A stretch of DNA of 44,245 bases from Gemmatimonas sp. GTDB taxonomy: Bacteria > Gemmatimonadota > Gemmatimonadetes > Longimicrobiales > Longimicrobiaceae. Both the position numbers and the translations under genes were made by a program. The DNA is taken from positions 1 through 44,245 of the forward strand of contig WHSP01000021.1 of the NCBI GenBank assembly GCA_009380025.1, in the 5' to 3' direction. The first letter of the stretch is position 1, and every line of letters begins with the position of its first letter. Positions 1,422 to 15,966 of the stretch are shown piece by piece. A model generated the notes under the pieces. The model was not told the origin of the DNA and made no database searches. It saw only the letters and a list, made by a program, of their open reading frames with translations.

Positions 1422-1700
1422 ATGCGTCTCTCGAAGCAAGTCAAGCCGATCAGTTACCTGAAGAGCCACGCAGCCGAAGTGTTGCGTACGCTCAGAGAGC
1501 GCCGGGAGCCGCTGGTGATCACCCAGAACGGCGAGGCGAAAGCGGTTATCCAGGATCTGGAGTCTTATGAGGAAACGCAGGAGACGCTCGCGCTCCTGAA
1601 GATACTTGCGATGGGCAATCGCGACATCGAAGAAGGAAGGACCTCACCAGTGGAGGATGCGGTCGCCCGGCTCCGGACGAGCCGAAGCTCGGAGGCGTGA
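1422..1700 (+). CDS. Phd/YefM family antitoxin
   Basis: 92-residue antitoxin of the Phd/YefM fold. The N-terminal half (VKPISYLKSHAAEVLRTL, then PLVITQNGEAKAVIQDLESY) is the family's DNA-binding dimerisation domain, which typically represses its own promoter; the C-terminal helix would neutralise the toxin. It starts at an ATG directly after the AT-rich promoter region, and its TGA (1698-1700) overlaps a GTG start for the toxin gene, the usual translational coupling of these pairs. Family known; cognate toxin inferred from overlap. Confidence 0.9.
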   Translation: MRLSKQVKPISYLKSHAAEVLRTLRERREPLVITQNGEAKAVIQDLESYEETQETLALLKILAMGNRDIEEGRTSPVEDAVARLRTSRSSEA

Positions 1701-2030
1701 AGCGACTTCCCGTCCGGCTGACGGCGGGGGCGGAGCGGGACCTCGCGGCGATATACGGGTACATCGAGGACTCTGATGGCGAGGCTGCGGCAGATCGCGT
1801 CCTGCAGCGGCTGCTGGAGACGGGCTGAGCGTCTCTCCCGAATGCCGGAACGCGGATCGTTTCCGCGTGAGCTGGTGAAGATTGGTGTGCGGGAGTACCG
1901 GCAAGTGCTCCTCAAGCCGTATCGGGTGATCTACCGCATTCTGGACGACACCGTTTACATCGTCTTGATCGCGGATGCACGGCGCGACATGCAGACGCTT
2001 CTGACGGAGCGACTCCTCAGAGGATCTTGA
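1697..2030 (+). CDS. RelE/ParE family toxin, one frameshift
   Basis: ParE/RelE-superfamily toxin of about 110 residues. From GTG 1697 the frame gives VKRLPVRLTAGAERDLAAI and the first helices, then stops at a TGA near 1826. Removing one G from the GGG around 1823-1825 joins it to the downstream frame with the strongly typical core MPERGSFPRELVKIG, VREYRQVLLKPYRVIYRI and the terminal IADARRDMQTLLTERLL. ParE members usually poison gyrase and RelE members cut ribosome-bound mRNA; which applies cannot be told here. The frameshift would inactivate the toxin if real, which would leave the antitoxin as a relic; an error in a short G run is equally possible. Confidence 0.82.
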
Positions 2031-11101: not shown

Positions 11102-11848
11102 TCAGATCTCCACGACTACCGTATCCCCGAGGTTCTCGGCCCGGATCTCCGCGGCCCGCTCCGGGCGCGGCGGGATCTCCCTGAGCATCAGCGAGACGAA
11201 CTCCTCCTCGTCCGTGAGGGAGAAGGCTCGGTTGAACCGACGCTCGAAGCCGATCGTAGAAGCTGCCTTGCCGCTCAGCCCTCGTCCGCAGACGGAGCCG
11301 GAGAAGGCACCTGGAAGGACCTCGAGATACTCCGGCAGCGCTCGCAGCCGCTCGGCGCTCCGGAACAGGGCTCGCGCCCCATCCTCGGCCGCGGAGGCGA
11401 GCTCGGTCCGACCCATGTCACCGACCATCAGCGTGTGCCCGGTGAGGACGAACCACGGCTCCGGGCCTCGCGTCCGATCCGTCACGATGAGCGAGATGTG
11501 CTCGGGGGTATGGCCGGGGGTGTGGAGCACCTGCGCCAACACATTCCCTAGATCGAGGACCTCGCCGTTCTCGACGCCTCGAAACGGGTACCGGGCCTCC
11601 GCCCCCGCGAAGAGCACATACTCGGCGCCGGCGGCCTCGGCGAGCCGTCGACCCCCCGAGATGTGATCCGCGTGAACGTGTGTATCGACCACGTACCGGA
11701 TCGGGAGGCCGAGTGCTTCGGAATCGCGGAGATACCGGTCAACGTCCTCGGTCGGGTCGACCACGGCGCCCATCGCCTTCCCGCCGCACCCGAAAAGGTA
11801 GGACGCGGCCACCGCGGGGCCGGTATCGAGATACTGTCTCAGGATCAT
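11102..11848 (-). CDS. MBL-fold hydrolase, persulfide dioxygenase-like
   Basis: 248-residue metallo-beta-lactamase-fold protein. The metal site is intact: THVHADH (residues 56-62), H114 within HTPGHTPEH and D145 in GDMGR. The order and spacing resemble glyoxalase II and ETHE1-type persulfide dioxygenases, which oxidise glutathione persulfide to sulfite with a single iron. The C-terminal 50 residues (from about FERRFNRAF) match the tail seen in MBL proteins that are paired with rhodanese domains. Second gene of the operon, 25 bases after the ArsR-rhodanese gene. Persulfide as substrate is inferred from this context. Confidence 0.88.
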   Translation of the reverse strand: MILRQYLDTGPAVAASYLFGCGGKAMGAVVDPTEDVDRYLRDSEALGLPIRYVVDTHVHADHISGGRRLAEAAGAEYVLFAGAEARYPFRGVENGEVLDLGNVLAQVLHTPGHTPEHISLIVTDRTRGPEPWFVLTGHTLMVGDMGRTELASAAEDGARALFRSAERLRALPEYLEVLPGAFSGSVCGRGLSGKAASTIGFERRFNRAFSLTDEEEFVSLMLREIPPRPERAAEIRAENLGDTVVVEI

Positions 11849-11873
11849 GGAATCATCTCCGTTTTGCGTTCCA

Positions 11874-12542
11874 TCAGCGTTCTCCCGTCGCTACCGCTCG
11901 CCCCGCCAAACGCCATTCTGGAACGCCGCTCTTCATCCGCTGCGCGGCGAAGCCGTACTTCTGGAGCGTGTCGACTGCCTCAGAGGCGAATACGCAGAAG
12001 GGGCCCCGGCAGTAGGCCACCACCGGCCGGCCCGGCGGGATCTCCGCCAGACGCCGCTCGAGCTCCTCGATCGGCATCGACACCGCTCCTGGAATGTGCC
12101 CCGCCGTGTACTCGTCGCGTGGTCGAACATCGAGGACCGTGACCGCCCCCTCCTCCAGGCGCTCCAGCAGCTGATGGACATCGATCGGCTCCAGATCCGA
12201 GGGTGCCTCGAAGTAGGTGCGGGTGATCTGCTCCACCTCGGCGAGCCGCTCCCTCGCCAGCGCCTGGAGTTCGCGAACCACCCGCAGCACCGCGTCATCG
12301 GCGACCCGGTACAACACGTATGGCGGATCCTTCCGCGCCTCCACAAGCCGCGCCTCACGCAGCGTGCGGAGATGAGCGCTGGCATTTTTGATCCCCAGCC
12401 GTGCCTGCCCCGCGAGCTGCTCAACCGTCTTCTCCCCCTGCGAGAGCAGATCCAACATCTCCAGCCGCGCCGGGCTGGCCAGCGCCTTACCGACGCGGGA
12501 GAAGTGGTCGTAGAGCTCTGATTTTGGTGAGCGTCCGGTCAT
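11874..12542 (-). CDS. ArsR-family regulator fused to a rhodanese domain
   Basis: 222-residue two-domain regulator. Residues about 10-95 form an ArsR winged helix (LASPARLEMLDLLSQGEKTV, then NASAHLRTLREARLVEAR). Residues about 118-218 form a rhodanese domain (VTVLDVRPRDEYTAGHIPGA) whose active-site loop is CRGPFC with cysteines 178 and 183. Rhodanese cysteines accept sulfane sulfur, so the protein probably senses persulfide and derepresses its own operon with the MBL-fold and MFS genes. It heads the operon and faces an imperfectly spaced palindrome 12 bases upstream. The architecture is known in bacteria; the ligand here is inferred. Confidence 0.93.
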   Translation of the reverse strand: MTGRSPKSELYDHFSRVGKALASPARLEMLDLLSQGEKTVEQLAGQARLGIKNASAHLRTLREARLVEARKDPPYVLYRVADDAVLRVVRELQALARERLAEVEQITRTYFEAPSDLEPIDVHQLLERLEEGAVTVLDVRPRDEYTAGHIPGAVSMPIEELERRLAEIPPGRPVVAYCRGPFCVFASEAVDTLQKYGFAAQRMKSGVPEWRLAGRAVATGER

Positions 12543-12599: not shown

Positions 12600-12851
12600 T
12601 CAAGTCGTGCTGCCGACCTGGTTCGCTTGCGAGGGTGGATCAAGCGCCTCATTGAGTGGAGACGCTGCATCGGGATCAGAGCGATGTGCGTCGGAGCGCC
12701 GACGAATCTCCTCGCGCCGCTTCGCACTGAGCGGAAGTGACTCGGGGTGTGACACCGCCTCCAATCCTATGCTATCCCACAGATCCTGGACGAGCTGGAG
12801 GCGCTCCTCAAGACTCAGGTAAAGGAGGTCGGAGACTCTGGTGGCGTCCAT
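12600..12851 (-). CDS. Addiction-module antitoxin (TIGR02574-like), orphan
   Basis: 83-residue protein with the 'putative addiction module component' pattern: LYLSLEERLQLVQDLWDSI is the N-terminal helix pair and LSAKRREEIRRRSDAHRSDP the second motif. These small proteins normally precede a RelE/ParE toxin gene. Downstream on the minus strand comes the ArsR-rhodanese promoter instead, so no toxin is present. The last 14 residues (PPSQANQVGSTT and before) are atypical, which suggests that the 3' end was replaced when the toxin was lost. Confidence 0.75.
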   Translation of the reverse strand: MDATRVSDLLYLSLEERLQLVQDLWDSIGLEAVSHPESLPLSAKRREEIRRRSDAHRSDPDAASPLNEALDPPSQANQVGSTT

Positions 12852-12949: not shown

Positions 12950-13171
12950 GTCAGGATTATCGAAGACGCACTCGCGCTGGCCGTTGATCCAGGCGCGTCG
13001 GACCCAGCGAGGAAGGCACCGCATGGCGGTGTCTTCGAGCCGGCAAGCCGCTCCAGCGGGGCGAGCTTCGACAGGCGATCAATTGCCCAGCGGCTTGCCG
13101 TCGAGGAACAAGGTTGTCGCGGTCGGTCCCGGGGCCACGGCATTGACGGTGATGTTGCGGCCGCGGACCTG
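12950..13171 (-). pseudogene. Relic of a short-chain dehydrogenase (C-terminal part)
   Basis: On the minus strand the segment RGRNITVNAVAPGPTATTLF is the SDR motif that follows the catalytic Tyr-Lys; after one frame change near 13,080 it continues WAIDRLSKLAPLERL and then a damaged AFLAGSD...AWINGQ region, spread over further frames. The Rossmann N-terminus and active site are absent. Just past it on the plus strand, 13,160-13,273, an open stretch with YCANVLQDGHFQSAVE recalls proteins that end in a HEPN-like helical domain but is too short to name. Confidence 0.7.
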
Positions 13172-13350
13172 GGGGTGTTGGACGTGGTCAAGAGCGAGTG
13201 GGTCTACAAGGGGTTGCGGAACTATTGCGCGAATGTGCTTCAGGACGGACACTTCCAATCCGCAGTCGAGTAGACGCGCAACGCGGACAGGGCGAGCTCG
13301 GCCCCGGCCCCGCCTTCCTCGCCGCGCCCGTCGATCTGCTAGGGAGAGCA

Positions 13351-13878
13351 ATGCCCATGGACGAACGAGAGCAGCTCGAGACCCAGTGGGGCAGCCTGAG
13401 TGTCGCTCAGCGGCAGAACCTGTTCCGGGCCTGGGTCCTCGCGGAAACGATCGGGTTCCAGCCGGCCAGCTTCGCCTTCGGCGGTGGCAGCGAGGTCGAG
13501 TACGCCATCGCCCCGGACGCGAGCTCCTGGCAGGTCGCGGTTCCCGCGAGCCTCTTCAGCCAGGCCACGCCCGCCGCGGCGCTCGGGGCCGGTGAGACCA
13601 TCATCGAGATCGGCCACCTGTTCGCGGAATTGCGAGAGACGATCGATGAGCTGTCCGAGTTCGAATTCGAGGACGAGTCCTTGGAGGGGCAGGCGGCGGC
13701 GATCCTTCCGGGGATTATCGATGCGCTCGAACAGGAGAGGCAAGACCTGGAGAACGCACTCGGCGACGCCGGCCTGGACCCGGAGACGCTAGAGGCCCTC
13801 GAGAACGACCTCGAAGCGATCGAGGAGGCCCTGGAAGAGCTGCTCGAGGAGCTCGAAGAGCTGGGCATCTCGGTCTGA
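13351..13878 (+). CDS. Acidic coiled-coil protein, first gene of the PLD operon
   Basis: 175 residues, no family recognised. The first half is globular (WGSLSVAQRQNLFRAWVLAE, then an aromatic beta-type stretch), the second half is strongly acidic and helical: from about residue 95 it is a chain of Glu/Asp/Leu heptads ending ALEELLEELEELGISV, likely a coiled coil. ATG 13351 was chosen because GGGAG precedes it by a few bases; ATG 13357 is possible. It is followed after 12 bases by a small basic protein and then two PLD-fold genes, so it is probably the structural or regulatory partner in that set. Its acidic surface could bind the basic second product or mimic DNA; this is inference. Confidence 0.72.
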   Translation: MPMDEREQLETQWGSLSVAQRQNLFRAWVLAETIGFQPASFAFGGGSEVEYAIAPDASSWQVAVPASLFSQATPAAALGAGETIIEIGHLFAELRETIDELSEFEFEDESLEGQAAAILPGIIDALEQERQDLENALGDAGLDPETLEALENDLEAIEEALEELLEELEELGISV

Positions 13879-13890
13879 ACCGGAGGGACC

Positions 13891-14217
13891 ATGGAATCGT
13901 TCAAGGAGCTCTCGCCGCTCGAGCAGGTCCGTCGCGAGCGGTTCGTCCGGGCGCGCAGCCGGCACCTGCGGCAGGCCCTGTTCGTCCAGCGTCATCTGAT
14001 CGAAGCGCGGCTAGAAGAGCGGCGTCTCGACCATCTTGCCTCCCTTCCCGGATTCGGCAGGCTGAGCGAGGAGACTCGCGCGAGGGTGTCCTGGTTCTAC
14101 CTGCGACGCAGATCGACCTTCCTGGACCGGGTGGCGCTCGGCGTTGCGCGCAGGGACGACGCCGCGAAGGCAGTGGCCGAGCTGCGCCGGGCCCTCGCGG
14201 CAGGTGAGCCGTCATGA
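13891..14217 (+). CDS. Small basic helical protein, second gene of the PLD operon
   Basis: 108 residues, arginine-rich and predicted all-helical, not recognised. The N-terminal part (PLEQVRRERFVRARSRHLRQ) and a central SWFYLRRRSTFLDRV are strongly basic, suited to nucleic-acid contact or to pairing with the acidic product of the gene before it. A GGAGG site (13,882-13,886) sits four bases before its ATG, and its TGA overlaps the ATG of the first PLD gene (ATGA at 14214-14217). Tight coupling makes it a real member of the operon. Confidence 0.72.
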   Translation: MESFKELSPLEQVRRERFVRARSRHLRQALFVQRHLIEARLEERRLDHLASLPGFGRLSEETRARVSWFYLRRRSTFLDRVALGVARRDDAAKAVAELRRALAAGEPS

Positions 14218-14744
14218 CCATCCTGAGCGCCGCCTACCCCGCCGCCGAGGTGACCCGGGTCTCCGACGGAGACTACTCCGAAGCCGTCCTGCGCCTGATC
14301 CGGAGCAGCGTCGCCCAGTGCCTGTGCGACGTTTTCATCATCGACCACGACCTGCAGCGCGACCTCGACGTTCGGGTCGACCGCGTCCTGCTCGAGCTGG
14401 CCGCCGCCTCGTGGCGCGGCGTCGACACCCGGCTCCTCATCGGCGGGTCCCGCGACGTGCCGGAGATCCGCGGTGCGACCCTGCTCGCCTGGGAGCGGGC
14501 ACGCGAGCTCGGCGTGGAGGCCCGGCTCGCGGCCGCCTCGCGTGGCCGCTCGAGCCACGCCAAGCTGGTGATCGCCGATGGCTCGGTCTTGATCGGCTCC
14601 CACAACTGGTCACGGGGGATGTTCGGCGACGAGACCCAGGACAGCGTGCTGCTGGAGAGCCCGGCCCTGGCGGCCGCCATGCGCACCTACTTCAACGACA
14701 AATGGACGGCGGTGTCGCGCGATGACTACGACGTATCGATTTGA
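14214..14744 (+). CDS. PLD-fold protein (single HKD domain)
   Basis: 176-residue phospholipase-D-superfamily protein with one catalytic motif: HAKLVIAD gives H115, K117 and D122, followed by IGSHNWS. Single-HKD members of this size, such as bacterial Nuc-type endonucleases, act as homodimers with one histidine from each subunit. There is no signal peptide, so it is probably cytoplasmic, and its partner genes favour a nuclease or nucleic-acid role over lipid cleavage. The upstream part VDTRLLIGGSRDVPEIRG is the usual strand before the motif. Its 3' end overlaps the next PLD gene by 23 bases in another frame. Confidence 0.88.
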   Translation: MTILSAAYPAAEVTRVSDGDYSEAVLRLIRSSVAQCLCDVFIIDHDLQRDLDVRVDRVLLELAAASWRGVDTRLLIGGSRDVPEIRGATLLAWERARELGVEARLAAASRGRSSHAKLVIADGSVLIGSHNWSRGMFGDETQDSVLLESPALAAAMRTYFNDKWTAVSRDDYDVSI

Positions 14745-15966
14745 GTGGTCCCAGCTCGTCTCCGATGGCCTGGTGGATCGACTGGCTGCCATCACGGGTG
14801 AGGCCGCGGCGGACCGCGACGAGGTTCGAGGCCTGCTGGCGCGGGTCTTCGAGGGCGTCGGCGGCGCGCCGGTTGCGAACAGCGACTGGGACGCCGATCA
14901 CCGGTCCCGCGTCGGAGACCTACTGTTCGGCGAAGCCGTCCGCGCGGTCCTGAAGCATCGATTCGGTTTCCAGGGCCCGAAGCCCGGGGTCATCACCCAG
15001 GACGTCCAAGGCGCAGTCGAGGCCGTCGGCGTCGACCGGATCGACGTGAACCGGGCGTCCCGAGCCCGGCTCGAGGCGCTACCCGTGATCGGCCCGGTCC
15101 TCGCGAGCCGGATCGAGGAGGAGCGCCGACGCAACGGCTACTTCTACTCGATGTCCGACCTGGTGACGCGGGTGAAGGGCCTGGGAGAGGAGAACGCAGA
15201 GCGGCTGACTGGGGTCTTGGACTTCACGGACCAGGGAGGGACCGCCGCGCGCGCCGTCACCGGATCCCTGGAGGACGACGTCGAGGCGCTGCTCTCGATG
15301 GTCCGGCACGAGAGCGGTCGGGACCGGCTGGCCGCGGGGCTCGAGGAGGTGGTCCTCTACGTGGCCGCCCATCCGCATCCGTACACGCGCCTGGAGCAGA
15401 AGCGCGACGACCTCGAGCCGCACGACGCAAGCGATGGAGGAGCGGCCACCGTCCGCGCGAGCCGGGTCCAGGTACTGACGGACGGCTCCTACTACCGGCA
15501 TCTGATCGGGCTGCTCGAAGGCGTGCGGGAGCGTGTGGACGTCTGCATGTTCTATATCGCCCTGCCGCAGCCCGGGCACCCGACGCACGAGCTACTCGAC
15601 GCGCTGGCACGAAAGGCCGACGCCGGCCGCAAGGTGCGGGTCCTCGTCGACCAGGACGGCAAGGACGATCCCTATCGTTCGCACCTGATCAACGCCGAGG
15701 CGATGGCGTTCCTCTCGTCCAACGGCGTCGAGGTCAAGGGAGACCCGACGGAGAAGCTCCTGCACTCCAAGTTCGTCGTGATCGACGAGTCAGTCGTGGT
15801 CATCGGCTCCCACAATTGGACCGCCGGATCGTTCTTCCACTACGCCGACGTCTCGGTGGCGATCTCCGGTGCCCAGGCCTGCCGCCTCTGGCGAACCCGG
15901 TTCGACAGCTTGTGGTCACAGGCGGAGGCCTTCCGTCTCGCCGAGCCCGACGCGGAGCCGTCGTAG
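14722..15966 (+). CDS. Helix-hairpin-helix plus PLD-fold protein
   Basis: 414-residue two-part protein. Residues about 103-168 form a ComEA-like helix-hairpin-helix: RIDVNRASRARLEALPVIGP then SRIEEERRRNGYFYSMSDLV and KGLGEENAERL, a fold that binds DNA backbone without sequence specificity. Residues about 245-400 form a PLD-like domain with a full motif HSKFVVIDES (H348, K350, D355) and IGSHNWTAGS. Before that is a second PLD half without an HKD. The N-terminal 90 residues are helical and unassigned. The DNA-binding module next to a single HKD supports a DNA nuclease. Last gene of the four-gene unit. Confidence 0.88.
   Translation: MTTTYRFEWSQLVSDGLVDRLAAITGEAAADRDEVRGLLARVFEGVGGAPVANSDWDADHRSRVGDLLFGEAVRAVLKHRFGFQGPKPGVITQDVQGAVEAVGVDRIDVNRASRARLEALPVIGPVLASRIEEERRRNGYFYSMSDLVTRVKGLGEENAERLTGVLDFTDQGGTAARAVTGSLEDDVEALLSMVRHESGRDRLAAGLEEVVLYVAAHPHPYTRLEQKRDDLEPHDASDGGAATVRASRVQVLTDGSYYRHLIGLLEGVRERVDVCMFYIALPQPGHPTHELLDALARKADAGRKVRVLVDQDGKDDPYRSHLINAEAMAFLSSNGVEVKGDPTEKLLHSKFVVIDESVVVIGSHNWTAGSFFHYADVSVAISGAQACRLWRTRFDSLWSQAEAFRLAEPDAEPS

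Follow-up and report, generated by a model that had tools for sequence, protein, structure and literature searches.

What does a set of four tightly coupled genes do when two of them encode PLD-fold proteins, and which of the four belong together? We addressed this question for an operon within a 44,245-nucleotide stretch of Gemmatimonas sp. DNA (referred to as the window), starting from a reading of the sequence alone and following it with profile, structure and genome searches.

Four coupled genes encode two small helical proteins and two PLD proteins

The coordinates of g1 to g4 (Table 1) reproduced exactly those given by the sequence-only reading, as did their junctions: a 12-base gap between g1 and g2, a 4-base overlap between g2 and g3, and a 23-base overlap between g3 and g4. 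Each gene starts with ATG and is free of internal stops. Across the four genes, GC content is 0.80-0.93 at third codon positions and 0.44-0.50 at second positions, a pattern indicating that all four are genuinely coding. The 19-residue hydropathy maximum of the operon proteins is 1.55 or lower; given the lack of a long hydrophobic stretch, neither a signal peptide nor a membrane helix is apparent in any of them, in agreement with the earlier reading.

Table 1. Positions of the operon genes and of other features discussed in the text
Feature	Sequence	Position	Strand	Description
g1	Window	13351..13878	+	175 aa, strongly acidic, mostly helical, pI 4.1; ORF with SD-like GGGAGAG
g2	Window	13891..14217	+	108-aa basic helical protein; small-helical-protein slot of relatives
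g3	Window	14214..14744	+	176 aa, single-domain PLD protein, one intact HKD (H115, K117, D122)
g4	Window	14722..15966	+	414 aa: helical N-domain, ComEA-type HhH (about 105-165), linker, PLD domain, one intact HKD (H348, K350, D355)
Antitoxin-toxin pair	Window	1422-2030	+	Phd/YefM antitoxin, then ParE-like toxin
Metallo-hydrolase and regulator	Window	11102-12542	-	Persulfide-dioxygenase-like (by eye); ArsR-rhodanese fusion (HTH_5 + Rhodanese)
Solitary antitoxin	Window	12600-12851	-	Putative addiction-module antitoxin (Unstab_antitox)
Gene fragments	Window	about 13079-13191		Short-chain-dehydrogenase-like (by eye)
Archaeal HhH-PLD gene	L005	6489-8195		g4 homologue with extra C-terminal domain
Solitary SNase gene	L026	8597-8947	-	Prolixibacteraceae genome (G403)
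PLD gene	L017	1390-2838		Probably secreted product
PLD gene	L018	649-2100		Probably secreted product
PLD gene region	L016	1314-5624		Thermococcus plasmid pTBMP1

Searches with g1 against Pfam, PADLOC, NCBIfam, PHROGs and PDB sequences returned low-complexity coiled-coil matches only. Its single-sequence AlphaFold model, which is of low confidence (mean pLDDT 63.8), had no significant Foldseek match, and no homologue was found in 98 relatives of the same order. For g2, Pfam and the other profile searches gave no family match.

The two remaining proteins are readily placed. Pfam assigned PLDc_2 to g3 (4.3e-13) and both PLDc_2 (2.2e-22) and HHH_3 (3.2e-12) to g4. The HKD motifs, read as intact from the sequence, are complete in both proteins and followed in each by GSHNW, and their residues are invariant in the alignments of the g3 and g4 families (window copy and relatives). 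With a PLD fold and intact HxKx4D and GSxN motifs, g3 and g4 are putative members of the nuclease branch of the PLD superfamily. Foldseek matched g4, whose AlphaFold model (mean pLDDT 60.8) is reliable only in its HhH and PLD parts, to Nuc, Zucchini, PLD3 and NucT, and these nucleases are among the fold and sequence neighbors of the g3/g4 pair as a whole. The HhH module of g4 matches ComEA (TIGR01259, 38 bits) and EEPD1 (1.7e-25), which bears out its earlier description as DNA-oriented. Given that nucleases prevail among the best small-domain matches and that the HhH is of the ComEA/EEPD1 type, DNA is probably the substrate.

The fold matches also take in phospholipases and PssA, and a cardiolipin synthase model is weakly matched, as would be expected if the pair were a split phospholipase or cardiolipin-type enzyme acting on lipid head groups. 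This reading is highly improbable: g4 carries a DNA-binding module, a membrane segment is absent, nucleases are the best small-domain matches, and two relatives encode an SNase partner (see below).

PLD catalysis relies on a pair of HKD motifs, united either by dimerization or by duplication; Nuc and similar single-HKD proteins work as homodimers. Since g3 and g4 contribute one HKD each and their genes overlap, a g3-g4 complex is the simplest arrangement. Half-by-half alignments give a hint, though only a hint, that the pair may be a split two-HKD enzyme: human PLD3 and the nicking-joining enzyme are matched in their N-terminal half by the g4 profile and in their C-terminal half by the g3 profile, while on 7e0m the halves align in the reverse order. 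In a small tree, which is indicative only because of its long branches, the g3 proteins cluster apart from the g4 proteins with support of 89/91.

The PLD pair and a small helical protein recur in distant lineages

With g4 as the sole query in a scan of 84,980 species genomes, we confirmed three further loci, in a Methanophagales archaeon (L005), a Prolixibacteraceae bacterium (L006) and Symbiobacterium (L007). Because the query contained no neighboring genes, any conservation of neighbors counts as evidence in its own right. Directly upstream of the HhH-PLD gene, all three loci have a single-domain PLD gene, with ends overlapping or touching. Identity to the window copy is 25-35% for g3 and 24-28% for g4. 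When the g4 profile was run against the three genomes, exactly two PLD matches per genome reached 1e-10, always in adjacent genes; G404 gave a third match, which covers an HhH stretch alone. That the two best PLD matches adjoin in each of these distant genomes indicates that the arrangement is more than chance. The archaeal HhH-PLD protein carries an extra C-terminal DUF4332 (1.8e-30), which is missing in the other three copies.

A small helical protein or domain also precedes the PLD pair in each relative. The archaeal (97 aa) and Prolixibacteraceae (91 aa) proteins in this position are recognizable relatives (E 4.5e-9 when the two sequences are compared directly), and in Symbiobacterium the g2-like helical region is found as the C-terminal portion of an M23 protein. 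The window's g2 resembles these counterparts in position, size class and helical character, demonstrable sequence homology being confined to the archaeal and Prolixibacteraceae pair. The conserved unit is thus helical protein, PLD and HhH-PLD (g2-g3-g4), with four members known. The four-gene set proposed from the window alone stands in part: the PLD pair and small helical gene recur in four distant lineages, but g1, absent from all three relatives, is replaced there by YkuD, M23 or SNase proteins. Of the two upstream genes, then, the PLD genes do without the first, while the g2 slot is kept in all three. The suggestion that the acidic protein inhibits or regulates the basic one finds little support and does not extend to the relatives, as g1 is not conserved and the g2 slot is inconsistently basic (pI 11.5, 10.3, 6.4 and 5.2 across the four loci).

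The first slot of the cassette exchanges partner enzymes

The gene g1 is a variable-slot gene outside the conserved set. The archaeal locus has in its place a YkuD-like protein (4.6e-11) with the H...TDGC catalytic signature; Symbiobacterium has an M23 peptidase (5.9e-16) with both zinc motifs, fused to the helical part; and the Prolixibacteraceae bacterium has an SNase. The archaeon also encodes an SNase, at the other end of the cassette downstream of the HhH-PLD gene. These two SNases give scores of 9.8e-14 and 4.7e-15 and share 58% identity, although one is archaeal and the other bacterial. Linkage of the SNase to the cassette is not strict: a further SNase gene, standing alone in the Prolixibacteraceae genome, shares 61% identity with the cassette copy (Table 1), and no SNase was found in the window's genome or in G404. 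By inspection, no signal peptide was seen in the YkuD, M23 or SNase partners.

Such partners raise the possibility of an antibacterial effector cassette, in which the PLD pair, the SNase and the cell-wall enzymes would be delivered together into rivals, by contractile injection, lysis or another non-classical route, to hit both wall and DNA. Both the YkuD and the M23 partner retain their catalytic motifs, and a signal peptide is not evident in either. The YkuD copy lies on an archaeal contig (with CofE and a PurP-type ligase) whose host is expected to lack murein, so that its target would be foreign. There is a precedent in archaeal peptidoglycan hydrolases, which are established as killing bacteria; many have no signal peptide, and those without one tend to be found together with contractile injection genes (PMC12352652). 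Nevertheless, we consider delivery as an effector set unlikely: none of the delivery markers PAAR, VgrG, DUF4157 and WXG was seen in the loci, no immunity gene was recognizable, the window and Prolixibacteraceae copies have no cell-wall enzyme, and YkuD enzymes are transpeptidases rather than typical lysins.

The cassette is rare and probably horizontally distributed

Around the window's host, no second full-length g4 match was found in 98 relatives of the order and 394 other members of the phylum. The same holds for the other hosts, where the known locus was the only full-length match: among 394 genomes of the class and 139 of the family for the Prolixibacteraceae bacterium, 344 of the phylum and 52 of the order for the archaeon, and 298 of the phylum and 120 of the class for Symbiobacterium. 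These searches used g4 or its profile and covered about 1,300 genomes in total around the three other hosts, with some genomes searched more than once and, in several searches, only the best few candidates per genome scored. That so rare a gene set is scattered so widely suggests that it spreads by horizontal transfer and is dispensable to its hosts, and the archaeal neighbor genes of the L005 contig imply that transfer crosses domains.

A viral or phage origin of the operon was considered and set aside, as neither five viral-contig scans nor tblastn against phage records returned a relative. Plasmids yielded only generic PLD nucleases and one PLD gene, on the Thermococcus plasmid pTBMP1, that lacks the companion genes; its vicinity includes genes for NACHT-domain, HD-domain and AbiEi proteins, which may be a defence cluster of its own. 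Two matches at about 1e-28 (L017 and L018), from two genomes in the order of the archaeal host, were rejected as cassette members since they have a signal-like N-terminus and match in the PLD domain alone. They are probably secreted PLD proteins, unrelated to the cassette, that also contain repeated C-terminal domains and, by eye, a region resembling a lamin tail.

The near-total absence of the cassette from relatives also speaks against a housekeeping role such as DNA repair or DNA-uptake processing, in which the HhH-PLD protein would act on branched or incoming DNA. ComEA and EEPD1, the latter a fork-repair nuclease, are the nearest matches of the HhH, and SNases and cell-wall enzymes are known to accompany uptake machineries as well. 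The operon proteins, however, lack the signal peptide of a periplasmic uptake role, and the examined loci contain no repair or competence neighbors. We regard a repair or uptake operon as quite improbable.

The gene set differs from named PLD systems

PLD nucleases recur as effectors in immune systems, and those of the named systems considered have a helicase partner; the Mokosh PLD protein, too, depends on its helicase. The PLD proteins of DISARM and Dpd need a helicase (PMC12458937). No helicase was found among the operon genes or tested neighbors, nor by eye among the ORFs of the three relative loci, and the same is true of the DISARM partners DrmA helicase and DUF1998 DrmB. The operon resembles DISARM and Dpd in having a PLD protein within a multi-gene set, but g3 (29.6 bits) and g4 (28.1 bits) miss the curated DrmC cut-off of 133, and the DpdK cut-off of 100 is missed at 15.6 bits. 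For Mokosh (MkoA/B/C), the operon PLD domain is related to the PLD part of MkoB (339-439 of 610) and MkoC (996-1127 of 1136); only these parts are matched. Nuc and NucT share the single-HKD PLD domain, with HxKx4D followed by GSxN, and a similar fold. Whereas they are lone secreted homodimers, two differing PLD proteins are co-encoded here, one with an HhH, and the NucT equivalog cut-off (211-297) is missed at no more than 27.9 bits. With ComEA and EEPD1, g4 has the HHH_3 DNA-binding module in common, but it lacks a signal peptide and an EEP nuclease domain, joins its HhH to a PLD domain, and falls short of the comEA subfamily cut-off of 152. With scores this far below the curated cut-offs, the earlier statement that the set matches no named system still stands. 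No description of the gene set was found in the literature searched, which did not extend to most subscription papers. The gene arrangement is real, conserved and built from known enzyme families, and it is apparently undescribed.

Since PLD nucleases serve as effectors in DISARM, Dpd and Mokosh, and the operon proteins are weakly similar to DrmC, MkoB, MkoC and DpdK, an anti-phage or anti-plasmid restriction-like system may be envisaged, in which g1 and g2 sense invasion and release the PLD-pair DNase. Defence genes typically show such a sporadic spread and move by horizontal transfer. We give this reading a low probability: a helicase, ATPase, methylase or recognizable sensor is missing, and the cell-wall enzyme partners would have no obvious role. 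The cell-wall enzymes, notably the one whose archaeal host is expected to have no murein, somewhat favor an attack on cells over defence.

A proposed mobile conflict cassette with a shared PLD active site

The reading that we prefer, and to which we give about an even chance, is that g2-g3-g4 is a horizontally moved conflict cassette with an exchangeable first slot. In this scheme, g3 and g4 would pair into a single shared active site and act as one DNase, the ComEA-type HhH of g4 would grip the DNA backbone and steer the enzyme, and g2 would serve as an assembly or control subunit. The exchange of first-slot partners, among them an acidic helical protein, a YkuD-like protein, an M23 peptidase and an SNase, suggests that the operon serves in conflict, against invading DNA or rival cells, and not in housekeeping repair. 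Given that no delivery gene was seen, we retain this general statement as the best explanation. A more specific version is doubtful: a split two-gene PLD DNase with an HhH clamp and a helical adaptor, whose first slot swaps cell-wall enzymes and nucleases, might couple DNA destruction with cell-wall attack or sensing in a mobile cassette of archaea and bacteria. If the proposal is correct, a helicase-free cassette with two different PLD proteins, conserved in one archaeal and three bacterial lineages and accompanied by interchangeable cell-wall enzymes or nucleases, would represent a simple new conflict arrangement. It would also offer a readily testable case of a split PLD active site.

Genomic surroundings

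The window was earlier described as resembling a defence region. Toxin-antitoxin pieces are indeed present, and would suit a restriction-like system: the Phd/YefM antitoxin and ParE-like toxin lie 11 kb from the operon, and a solitary putative antitoxin, with no evident toxin partner, lies closer (Table 1). Otherwise the resemblance to a defence region finds little support, which weighs against restriction-like defence. No defence-system family was convincingly found in the tested immediate flanks of the window operon, and neither the window nor the three relatives showed enrichment near defence genes in the tested flanks, which consist mostly of housekeeping or transport genes. Short-chain-dehydrogenase-like fragments lie between the solitary antitoxin and g1. 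Further upstream, the persulfide-dioxygenase-like gene and the adjacent ArsR-rhodanese fusion regulator, followed by an MFS transporter, look like a sulfide or persulfide response operon.
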